Source: a virus. From it: DNA of 26,008 nucleotides. The stretch covers positions 1 through 26,008 of the IMG/VR virus record IMGVR_UViG_3300037189_009658, one strand, 5' to 3'. The number at the start of each line of letters is the position of its first letter. The stretch's first letter is position 1. The notes under the pieces are model-generated. The model did no database searches and was not told the DNA's origin. It was given only the letters and a program-made list of their open reading frames with translations. The translations under genes and the position numbers were made by a program. This document shows positions 796-22,886 of the stretch, piece by piece.

Positions 796-966
796 ATGGA
801 AATAAGTGAAAAAGAATATAATGAAAAATTAGATGATTATCTAAGACAGCAAGGACCAAATCCTGGTACTACATTCTTTAGTTCTTGGGGTTGGTATGCA
901 ACAAAACGAAATGAATTCAACGCAATAATGAAAGAAGAAGGAATTGTTGTAATCCCTTCAAAGTGA
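796..966 (+). CDS. Small hypothetical protein, 56 aa
   Basis: ATG at 796 follows the previous stop (791-793) by two bases, with GGAG just upstream, so it would be translated by coupling. The product starts MEISEKEYNEKLDDYLRQQG, is acidic and Trp/Phe-containing in the middle (FFSSWGWY), and ends IVVIPSK. I do not recognise it. Its last codons overlap the predicted 5' part of the tmRNA acceptor piece: CCTTC at 955-959 pairs with the coding piece. The same DNA may therefore be both the end of a gene and part of a structured RNA. Confidence 0.5.
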   Translation: MEISEKEYNEKLDDYLRQQGPNPGTTFFSSWGWYATKRNEFNAIMKEEGIVVIPSK

Positions 967-1007
967 AGGCATTCTGGACGTGGGTTCGACTCCCACCTGG
1001 TCCACCA
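953..1007 (+). other. ssrA: tmRNA acceptor piece (T-arm and CCA end)
   Basis: This segment holds the T-stem/loop, the 3' acceptor strand 997-1003, discriminator A1004 and encoded CCA 1005-1007. The new 5' end made by the permutation is unknown. It should lie upstream of CCTTC (955-959) if the proposed P2 pairing is right, which places it inside the end of the 56-aa ORF. Confidence 0.8.
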
Positions 1008-1089
1008 AAAACGAGATGACTCCGGATACTGTGGTCGACATACGGTACCTGAACATTAGGATAATAGGTAGTCCTAGTCCGTTTTTGAG
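1008..1089 (+). other. Intervening segment removed from permuted pre-tmRNA
   Basis: These 82 bases join the CCA end to the GGGCCAG start. AAAAACG (1007-1013) is perfectly complementary to CGTTTTT (1080-1086), so the segment closes as a hairpin stacked near the acceptor stem, a form that tRNA-processing enzymes (RNase P at 1090, a 3' tRNase at 1007) could cut. GACT (1017-1020) and AGTC (1076-1079) could extend the pairing across an internal loop. Processing is inferred from known permuted tmRNAs. Confidence 0.75.
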
Positions 1090-1262
1090 GGGCCAGTATC
1101 TGGTTTCGACAGGGTGAGATAGCAGAGAAGGCAACACGGTAGGCGATGACCGTTAATCAAGCAAATTAGTAAATGCTAATGATGCATTTTATGGAGAAGA
1201 TCGCCTAGCAGCGTAATCTCTTGGGGTTTCGCCGACTGTCCTTATTACCCAATCAGTCGGCA
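1090..1262 (+). other. ssrA: tmRNA coding piece with D-loop, hairpin and pseudoknot
   Basis: It starts at G1090 of the acceptor stem. A hairpin ACGGT (1136-1140)/ACCGT (1149-1153) lies upstream of the tag, at the PK1 position. After the tag, GCCGACTG (1231-1238) pairs with CAGTCGGC (1254-1261), and its loop bases CCCAA (1248-1252) can pair with TTGGG (1221-1225), giving an H-type pseudoknot. The 3' end is taken just after this structure and is not precise. Confidence 0.8.
1172..1216 (+). other. tmRNA-encoded degradation tag (A)NANDAFYGEDRLAA
   Basis: Following TTAGTA, the position of the conserved UAGUC before the E. coli resume codon, the frame AAT GCT AAT GAT reads 14 codons to TAA at 1214-1216: NANDAFYGEDRLAA. 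With the alanine carried by the tmRNA this makes a 15-residue tag. The AND start is like alphaproteobacterial tags, and the LAA end is the ClpXP degron. If the resume codon were GCT at 1175 the tag would be one residue shorter. Confidence 0.8.
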
Positions 1263-1282: not shown

Positions 1283-1951
1283 ATGAAAGTTTATTTGTCT
1301 AAGTATCGCAATCATTGGATTTCTCCATACACAATATTGGAGAAAGCTTTCTTTTGGCGTGAGATTGATTATGATGAACCTATCATTGAAAAATTTTCTA
1401 ACATTCTTGAACCATTTTGCATAGCATGGATGAAGTTTCTTGATTTCATTCATCCAAGAATTGAGTACGTCAAGATTGATCCTTGGGATGTGTGGAATAT
1501 GGATCACACACTTTCACCAATCATTCTTCCAATGTTGAAGAGACTCAAAGAAACAAAACACGGTTCGGGTTTTGTTGACATGGAAGATGTGCCAGAACAT
1601 CTCCGCGCAACGACAACTGAAGAATGGGATAGTCAACACACCTTTGATTTTTATAATGAGGATGTTCCAAAAGAGGGTGTTGCAGATATTCATGCACGAT
1701 GGAATTGGGTGCTTGATGAAATGATTTTTGCTTTTGAACACCTTGTTGATGACACGTGGGAAGACAAGTTTAGTTCGGGTACTATTGATACAGTATTTGT
1801 TCCTTGTGAAGATAATCCAAAACTTAGTCGTATGGAACACGGACCGAATCACACATACGTTTGTGATTATGACGGTATCAGAAGAGTGTATGATCGTATA
1901 GATAATGGTCTGCGTTTGTTTGGTAAATATTATCGTAACTTGTGGGATTAA
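1283..1951 (+). CDS. Conserved T4-like phage protein of unknown function, 222 aa
   Basis: The sequence has a characteristic core, DPWDVWNMDHTLSPIILPML (about residues 67-86), then ETKHG, VDMEDVPEHL, HARWNWVLDEMIFAFEHL (about 139-156), EHGPNHT and a C-terminal GLRLFGKYYRNLWD. I recognise this pattern as a widespread conserved protein in marine T4-like phages and viral metagenomes, but know no function. It is rich in Trp, Asp, His and Glu. No signal peptide or membrane helix is obvious. The start at 1283 has AGGA nine bases upstream. It begins about 20 bases after the tmRNA structure and could be cotranscribed with it. Confidence 0.75.
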   Translation: MKVYLSKYRNHWISPYTILEKAFFWREIDYDEPIIEKFSNILEPFCIAWMKFLDFIHPRIEYVKIDPWDVWNMDHTLSPIILPMLKRLKETKHGSGFVDMEDVPEHLRATTTEEWDSQHTFDFYNEDVPKEGVADIHARWNWVLDEMIFAFEHLVDDTWEDKFSSGTIDTVFVPCEDNPKLSRMEHGPNHTYVCDYDGIRRVYDRIDNGLRLFGKYYRNLWD

Positions 1952-20232: not shown

Positions 20233-22886
20233 TGGCAACAAATTTAAAAACATCTGTTCTCGTAAATAATCAAGTTCCTGAATTTGTTCGGGACGAATAT
20301 CCATTATTCTTAAATTTCTTACAAGCATACTATGAGTTTCTTGAGCAGGAACAGGGAACAGAAAAAAATGATTTAATTACGCAAGCCAAAGAGTTGCGTG
20401 ATATTAAAGATGTTGATGCGTCTATTGATAAGTTTGAAGATAACTTTTTCAATACGTTTGCAACATTGTTTCCTAAAGAATCTGCAATCAATAAAGAGAC
20501 ATTGATCAAACATGCTTTGCCAATATATCTCTCAAAAGGTTCGGAAAAATCATTTCAGTTTTTGTTCCGTTTATTATTTGGTAAAGAAGTAGATGTTATC
20601 TATCCTAAAGATAATATTCTTCGTGCGTCAGATGGTAAATGGATATCTAACAACATTCTCAGAACAACACAGAACATCCAAAGCTATCATCGTGGCGATG
20701 GAATTAATAAATCTTTTACACTAGCACAGTCAGTTGATTCTAGCAGCATCGTTGTTTACATCAATAATGTTGTTCAGACGAATAATTTTTACATACTTAA
20801 AGAATATTCAAAACTGGTATTCAACACAGCGCCACCTAATAATGCTGAAATAAGAGTCCTCTACTTAAACTTTAATGTTGCGCTTTTTAATAATAGGAAA
20901 GTAACAGGAAGTATTTCGAGTGCTTCAGCACTCATTGAAACAGCAACTAAAAGAGTCATTACAGATGAAGTTAATTTAGGATTTCCTGTTGAACTTGTTG
21001 TAAGTAAGAGTAGCATTATTGGAACTTTTGCAAACGGTGAAGATTTACTTATTCCAATTATTGGTGCTGATGGCAATCAAATAGATGTTCGCACAGAAAC
21101 ATTTTCTATTATTCGTAAAATCAATGTTATTGATGGTGGACAAAGTTATAGAGTAGGCGATCTTGCAATTCTAACTGGTGGTGCACCAAAAAAAGAAGCA
21201 TTGGGTGAGGTTGAATCTGTATTCTCTGGCACAATTCAATTTGCCAACGTATCTGATGGCGGTGCAATATTCACGGTCACATCAAATGTTACATTAAGTC
21301 CAAACAACCAAGTTGCTAGAATCGTTGTTGGTTCAATTGACACTTCTGGAAGATTTGGCGCAAACACATATGTTGTTGCTACAGATTTAATTTCAAATCA
21401 TTCTAGCAATTTGATTTCTTCAGCAGACTATGGTTTTCCATCACCAAAAATTGCTTCACAGAATGTGAACACAAAAATTGCCGATGCGTTGAGTTTTCAA
21501 ACATTGACTGTAGGTTCTATTGCAACATTGAGTTTGTTGGGTGCAACGGGTGTTGTCAACACTGCTCCTATTTTGGATGCAAATGGTGCAGTTTTTCAAC
21601 CGATGACTGGTTCAGCAGAACGCTCAGTCAAGTCGCTTAAAGGCATCGGTCGTATTGATATAGTTACTTCTGGCAGTGGATATGTTCCGGGTGATGAAAT
21701 TGTTTTTGGTGCAAATCCTTTTGGAACTTATGGTGAAGGTGCTGCTGCTGTTGTTGGCGAAGTAACATCCGCAGGCGGTGTGAAACGTATATACATGCAG
21801 CCAAGTCGTATCACTGGAACGGCAAATATACAAGCATCAAATGTTACAATCGTTGGTACTGGAACAAAGTTTAATACTGAACTTGCTATTGGTGATAGAA
21901 TCATTGTCAACAATGAGACAAGAATTGTCAATGCAATCGTAAGTGCAACAAGCGTCAACGTGAATGTCGCATTTACTACAACAGCAACAAGAAGAAGAGT
22001 TGGCGCATATGAAAGGCATCCTGTTGGTGGAATAAATTATACACAAAACAATTTTCCAACAGTTACAATTTCTTCAGCAACAGGAACTGGAGCAAACATA
22101 TTCATCCACTCTTGTGTTTCTGATGGTGAACATTTATCGGCAGCTGGCACAAAAAGACCCGGTGAGATTCTTTCAGTTCGTGTCAAAGATCCTGGACAAG
22201 CATATAAATATGAGCCTACTGTATTTTTTCAATCTGAAACTGGCAGTGATGCAAGAGGCAATGTTGAAATTGAACAGGCAATTACGAATTCAGAAGGTCG
22301 TTGGAGAACATCCGATTCAATATTATCCTCAAGTGATAGAAGATTGCCTGGAGAAGAATATTTCATCAACTATTCATATGTACTTTCTTCACAAGTTGAA
22401 TTTTCAAGATATAAAACCATATTCAAAGAGTTGATTCATCCGTCCGGATATATTGACTATAGCTGGTTTAATAAAGAAAACGTTGCTGCAAAAGAATCAA
22501 TTACAACAGCCGAAACAAAAGATTTTTCAATTGACGAATACTCATATACAATTGCTGGTACAGTTAATGTCAATAGTACGATTTTTGTTATTGGTACAGG
22601 AACAAAATTCAATACAGCAAACGCATTAGGATTCTTGTCAATTGGCTCCAACATTGCTGTAAACAATGTAATACGCACTGTAAATAGTATTATAAGTAAT
22701 ACAGAACTGACGGTTTCAAGTCCATTCAATACGCTTGCAAACCAGCAAACGATGATTATTTTGACATCAGAAAGAGTTCTGCCGGGACTGGATAATCTTG
22801 CGTCTGACAATCTCAGCGCACAATTAATTACAACAGAAGATGAAATTATTTTGGAAACCGAATCATCACTAATCCTTAGAATCTAA
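20232..22886 (+). CDS. Large baseplate wedge/tail structural protein (gp7 position)
   Basis: The 884-aa protein begins MATNLKTSVLVNNQVPEFVR, then DEYPLFLNFLQAYYEFLEQE, IDKFEDNFFNTFATLFPKES, HALPIYLSKGSEKSFQFLFR and GKEVDVIYPKDNILRASDGK. I recognise this N-terminal domain from large virion proteins of T4-like marine phages. Genome position after gp6 suggests the gp7 role (T4 gp7, 1032 aa), but homology to T4 gp7 is not evident to me. Three Gly-Tyr motifs occur near 296, 474 and 647. Two copies of a GTGTKFNT-type repeat (about 537-575 and 779-820) are like those of tail-fibre and adhesin proteins. The body is beta-rich, Asn/Ser/Thr-rich and cysteine-poor. It would attach to the wedge rim. Confidence 0.7.
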   Translation: MATNLKTSVLVNNQVPEFVRDEYPLFLNFLQAYYEFLEQEQGTEKNDLITQAKELRDIKDVDASIDKFEDNFFNTFATLFPKESAINKETLIKHALPIYLSKGSEKSFQFLFRLLFGKEVDVIYPKDNILRASDGKWISNNILRTTQNIQSYHRGDGINKSFTLAQSVDSSSIVVYINNVVQTNNFYILKEYSKLVFNTAPPNNAEIRVLYLNFNVALFNNRKVTGSISSASALIETATKRVITDEVNLGFPVELVVSKSSIIGTFANGEDLLIPIIGADGNQIDVRTETFSIIRKINVIDGGQSYRVGDLAILTGGAPKKEALGEVESVFSGTIQFANVSDGGAIFTVTSNVTLSPNNQVARIVVGSIDTSGRFGANTYVVATDLISNHSSNLISSADYGFPSPKIASQNVNTKIADALSFQTLTVGSIATLSLLGATGVVNTAPILDANGAVFQPMTGSAERSVKSLKGIGRIDIVTSGSGYVPGDEIVFGANPFGTYGEGAAAVVGEVTSAGGVKRIYMQPSRITGTANIQASNVTIVGTGTKFNTELAIGDRIIVNNETRIVNAIVSATSVNVNVAFTTTATRRRVGAYERHPVGGINYTQNNFPTVTISSATGTGANIFIHSCVSDGEHLSAAGTKRPGEILSVRVKDPGQAYKYEPTVFFQSETGSDARGNVEIEQAITNSEGRWRTSDSILSSSDRRLPGEEYFINYSYVLSSQVEFSRYKTIFKELIHPSGYIDYSWFNKENVAAKESITTAETKDFSIDEYSYTIAGTVNVNSTIFVIGTGTKFNTANALGFLSIGSNIAVNNVIRTVNSIISNTELTVSSPFNTLANQQTMIILTSERVLPGLDNLASDNLSAQLITTEDEIILETESSLILRI

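Follow-up and report, generated by a model that had tools for sequence, protein, structure and literature searches.

The tmRNA locus and its carrier phage

The window, that is, the whole stretch of DNA that was analysed, is a virus fragment of 26,008 bases, which carries the T4-like genes gp59, gp32, gp6 and gp8 as well as genes for the tail tube cap, the baseplate hub and other baseplate and tail families. Among isolated phages, the nearest gp6 proteins are those of Melnitz, HTVC008M and Mosig (37-40% identity). On the plus strand, Rfam models and ARAGORN identified a complete permuted tmRNA gene at 945-1262, which is flanked by a small ORF (796-966) and a gene at 1283-1951. A preliminary description had proposed a phage-borne, circularly permuted two-piece tmRNA here, which is borne out by both programs and by the T4-like carrier. 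The layout it gave, with the half bearing the T arm and CCA placed first, an 82-base spacer, and a 7-bp acceptor stem with G-U as the third pair, agrees exactly with the sequence, which also places the CCA end at 1007 and the start of the coding piece at 1090 as predicted. Its range of 953-1262 is right at the 3' end, but the start clips the 5' P2 strand, which is part of the Rfam models. The features of the locus are as follows.

796-966, plus strand: ORF of 56 residues that runs with its last codons into the 5' end of the tmRNA gene (tblastn, 37 phage loci)
945-1007, plus strand: acceptor (tRNA-like 3') piece with encoded CCA at 1005-1007 (Rfam, ARAGORN; 5' end approximate)
945-949, plus strand: 5' P2 strand (Rfam models)
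980-996, plus strand: T arm, stem GUGGG 980-984 / CCCAC 992-996, loop UUCGACU 985-991 (sequence, Rfam)
997-1003, plus strand: acceptor stem 3' strand CUGGUCC, pairing with 1090-1096; G1092-U1001 is pair 3:70
1004, plus strand: discriminator A (sequence)
1006-1013, plus strand: spacer-end helix 5' strand CAAAAACG, 8 Watson-Crick pairs with 1080-1087
1008-1089, plus strand: intervening spacer, 82 bases, expected to leave the precursor (sequence)
1080-1087, plus strand: spacer-end helix 3' strand CGUUUUUG, pairing with 1006-1013
1090-1262, plus strand: coding piece, with acceptor 5' strand, P2 3' strands, P3 hairpin, tag frame and final pseudoknot
1090-1096, plus strand: acceptor stem 5' strand GGGCCAG (sequence)
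1137-1152, plus strand: P3 hairpin (Rfam)
1175-1216, plus strand: tag frame ANDAFYGEDRLAA, resume codon GCU 1175-1177, stop UAA 1214-1216 (ARAGORN)
1221-1261, plus strand: pseudoknot, stem 1231-1238 / 1254-1261 (8 bp) and UUGGG 1221-1225 / CCCAA 1248-1252
1283-1951, plus strand: downstream gene phrog_11543, used as locus marker

In some relatives, L005 and L011 among them, the 56-residue ORF does not adjoin the tmRNA gene. Two genes upstream of the tmRNA gene, at 263-793, there is a possible anti-restriction gene, which matches PF23780 (S-adenosylmethionine lyase family) with E 2.9e-15.

Consensus matches to a promoter of the tmRNA gene's own were seen, none of them convincing, and a search for a plus-strand terminator of this gene found none. 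A scan of the whole window for the T4 late promoter TATAAATA gave a single exact match, at 22203; when up to one mismatch was allowed there were 51 matches, where 55 would be expected. A T4 late promoter driving the tmRNA gene was rejected on these grounds. Since neither a clear promoter nor a terminator was seen, transcription would presumably read through from the phage genes upstream and yield the tmRNA as a single precursor.

Identity and type of the tmRNA gene

The gene matches RF01850 (beta_tmRNA) with 139.2 bits (E 7.9e-43, cut-off 84) and RF04321 (tmRNA_permuted) with 137.7 bits (E 2.7e-27, cut-off 47), the latter over the full model (positions 1-213 of 213), and these Rfam matches are far beyond chance. 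When the alpha, beta and cyano covariance models named in the preliminary description were run, only the beta model matched above its cut-off; the alpha model reached 35.1 bits (cut-off 50) and the cyano model 31.8 bits (cut-off 70), so the gene is assigned to the beta type. ARAGORN independently reported a permuted tmRNA at 915-1307 with the tag ANDAFYGEDRLAA. The terminator-like 3' hairpin of RF01850 is deleted in the gene's alignment, which bears on transcription and not on the mature RNA.

A G-U as third acceptor pair is the known alanine identity element, and the gene possesses this pair (G3-U70) together with the 7-bp acceptor stem and CCA. It also possesses a tag frame that starts at a resume codon and closes with Ala-Ala and a stop. 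The tmRNA is real, of a known kind, and almost certainly functional.

Spacer and probable processing hairpin

The two spacer ends are complementary and form a helix that extends the acceptor stem beyond CCA, and the spacer folds as a hairpin atop the acceptor stem (-38.1 kcal/mol). Spacer-end helices of at least 7 Watson-Crick pairs are present in 85 of 142 permuted genes, compared with about 11 expected when 3' ends were dealt among genes. The helix thus covaries, which fits a precursor cut at 1007 and 1090, both sites lying at the hairpin base. It supports a two-piece mature RNA, in which the cuts themselves would fall at these two predicted sites.

Conservation and covariation

Among 80 IMG/VR relatives of the downstream gene, 43 have a permuted tmRNA in the same orientation immediately upstream, one (L023) carries it further upstream, and nine are too short to tell. 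The remaining 27, mostly more distant, have none at this place, although two of them have one elsewhere; the gene is thus dispensable at this locus for the wider group.

Covariation was assessed on 51 distinct phage genes. In the acceptor stem, where three pairs show compensatory change (variants CUGGUCC/GGGCCAG, CAUCUCC/GGGGAUG, CAGCUCC/GGGGCUG, CUAGUCC/GGGCUAG and others), 357 of 357 cells are paired, compared with 0.79 of cells when acceptor 3' strands were dealt at random, and G3-U70 is invariant (51/51). The T stem is paired in 243 of 249 cells, also with 3 compensatory pairs, P2 and P3 likewise covary, and the final hairpin and pseudoknot are present in 50 of the 51 genes with changing sequences. 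P5, tested by aligned columns, was poorly supported, the alignment being ambiguous there.

Several relatives depart from the common form. The acceptor end reads CCACT in L098 and L116, so that CCA is not encoded in these two, and a T loop of GGCAGCA or GGCAGAG replaces UUCGAxU in L015 (2236-2604) and L093, with an alphaproteobacterial parallel (e.g., L418). The latter loops hint at exchange of the T arm between tmRNA types.

The degradation tag

The tag of the window gene has 13 residues. An exact degenerate pattern for it, AND-x-[FY]-YGE-[DE]-RLAA-stop with A, S or N at x (AND[ASN][FY]YGE[DE]RLAA), matches 54 viral contigs; across 84,980 species genomes of bacteria and archaea, where it would miss divergent versions, it has no match, whereas the control pattern ANDxxYALAA matches there at least 118 times. 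One bacterial one-piece gene carries the tag ANDEFYGEAVAAA. The YGE group comprises 41 genes with 24 coding DNAs and four near-identical peptides, and the variable sites among the 14 tag codons number 2, 2 and 11 at codon positions 1, 2 and 3, respectively. As the changes are almost all synonymous, the tag peptide is, by this codon pattern, under purifying selection. Frame, resume codon, stop and LAA end are kept in every parsed gene of the group.

At the same phage locus, tags are either of the 13-residue kind or of 10-residue kinds, mostly ANDxx[FY]ALAA. Both occur with several acceptor stems, which suggests module exchange.

The absence of the 13-residue pattern from the species genomes, set against the control, could be taken to mean that the main targets of the phage tmRNA are host or specific proteins, tagged for amino-acid recycling or removal of defence proteins, with the phage-only tag altering the choice of adaptor or protease; recycling of host proteins was also proposed for Melnitz (PMC9004378). 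However, ordinary ANDxxYALAA tags are carried by other phages at this locus, so the function does not depend on a private tag. The 13-residue tag moreover retains the C-terminal LAA, and an RLAA ending is also seen in some alphaproteobacterial tags. We consider this role unlikely.

Selection on the tag also bears on whether the gene might be a decaying relic of host capture, as the preliminary description had allowed, or an integration-site fragment, bacterial ssrA genes being known integration sites (PMC9004378). Against this, the gene is complete, its synteny is conserved, its stems show compensatory change and its tag is under purifying selection, which leaves the relic without support. The gene content is moreover T4-like, and T4-like phages are a lytic group. 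Decay or a leftover fragment is hardly conceivable for such a gene.

Proposed role in infected cells

The window gene probably is a working ssrA of the betaproteobacterial permuted type that rescues ribosomes during infection, to which we give a probability of roughly 85%. In the folded precursor, the spacer would form a hairpin atop the acceptor stem, and it would be removed by tRNA-processing enzymes, with RNase P cutting at 1090 and 3' trimming to CCA at 1007. Covariation and the known biology of two-piece tmRNAs suggest that the two pieces left would stay joined by the acceptor stem and P2. The product may then be charged by the host alanyl-tRNA synthetase via the G-U pair and brought to stalled ribosomes by host SmpB; translation would restart at GCU 1175, and the tag would direct the product to host proteases. 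The most likely benefit for the phage would be that ribosomes are freed and truncated products removed during host mRNA degradation and the shut-down of host genes. Rescue may also be kept going late in infection, as the preliminary description suggested.

Of 12 phage records of up to 194 kb, 11 have a permuted tmRNA, and SmpB was found in none of the 12, so host SmpB would have to serve; smpB is present in all 12 of the bacterial genomes with the beta type. The phage thus appears to rely on the SmpB, alanyl-tRNA synthetase and proteases of its host. A lack of phage SmpB would also suit a decoy that blocks host trans-translation by occupying SmpB or ribosomes, and phage tRNA-like-domain decoys have been reported to inhibit tmRNA, such a role having been proposed for the tRNA-like-domain-only tmRNA of mycobacteriophage DS6A (PMC4131195, PMC11915505). 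A decoy, however, needs no reading frame, yet frame, resume codon, stop and LAA end are conserved in the YGE group, which makes this very improbable.

Relation to bacterial beta-type genes

In a sample of 300 Burkholderiales genomes, 12 have a beta permuted ssrA that scores above the cut-off. Two of these 12 also carry a one-piece gene, G176 (L391, L465) and G270 (L393, L466), and for the permuted copy in G270 ARAGORN reads an unusual tag. A prophage origin of the bacterial permuted copies was rejected, as their neighbours in G176 and G270 are ordinary chromosomal genes.

In a quick tree, the bacterial beta genes are scattered among the phage genes. The tree is limited by its 166 columns and by module exchange, and in the AU test a single bacterial clade is not rejected (p 0.76), the constrained tree having the higher likelihood; phage-to-bacteria transfer is accordingly not claimed from it, and the direction of transfer lies beyond what such trees can settle. 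Phages may hold their own pool of beta-type permuted tmRNAs with tags absent from bacteria, giving phage-specific degradation tagging in infected cells, and this pool may have supplied the patchy Burkholderiales ssrA, but we regard this as decidedly unlikely.

Comparison with known permuted tmRNAs

The window gene shares with the Burkholderiales ssrA of RF01850 the permuted order, the tRNA-like domain, P2 and the hairpin elements. Unlike these, it is without an intrinsic 3' terminator and has a longer spacer-end helix, and its tag differs from the Burkholderiales tags, which are mostly ANDExFALAA, ANDExFAIAA or ANDExYALAA.

The preliminary description knew of no characterised two-piece tmRNA in a T4-like phage, which is outdated, for the two-piece ssrA of the T4-like myophage Melnitz, a Methylophilales phage, was published in 2022 (PMC9004378). 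A survey in the same paper reported 53 two-piece forms among 133 phage tmRNA structures, 50 of the 53 being aquatic (PMC9004378), and a 2025 tmRNA database holds 79 phage sequences (PMC11915505). The window phage shares with Melnitz and the pelagiphages Mosig and HTVC008M that it is a T4-like myophage with a permuted tmRNA. By gp6, no isolate found is nearer to it than Melnitz (37% identity), but the Melnitz ssrA is of the alpha type (RF01849, 106.7 bits) with the tag ANDNYVPVDYALAA and has a glutamine riboswitch close downstream, whereas the window gene is of the beta type and has no riboswitch match. The permuted tmRNAs of Mosig and HTVC008M (the latter at L452, 1443-1754) score as alpha type as well. 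The T4-like Synechococcus phage S-CAM3 also possesses a permuted tmRNA, but of the cyano type (RF01851, 132 bits; L451, 1476-1745).

Pseudomonas phages SM1 and UF_RH6 (Samunavirus) carry beta-type genes like that of the window (111 and 104 bits, respectively), and Samunavirus was the only match when the window gene was compared with phage records by blastn. They differ from the window phage in genus, in their 93-95 kb genome and in their tmRNA tag, ANDTSFDVRLAA. Their tmRNA genes are unannotated (UF_RH6, L368 2508-2807; SM1, L369 2505-2804). The one Pseudomonas genome examined has a one-piece gene with the tag ANDDNYALAA, so a phage and its host may differ in tmRNA form.

Compared with these systems, what is new here, on the sequences searched, is the occurrence of beta-type genes in this T4-like clade, together with a tag found only in phages. 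With the window clade included, the alpha, beta and cyano types of permuted tmRNA all occur in T4-like phages, and in one T4-like lineage ribosome rescue appears to be maintained with a tag that is absent from the bacterial genomes searched. Two questions thereby become testable, namely what use trans-translation is to a lytic phage and whether the tag alters the fate of rescued proteins.
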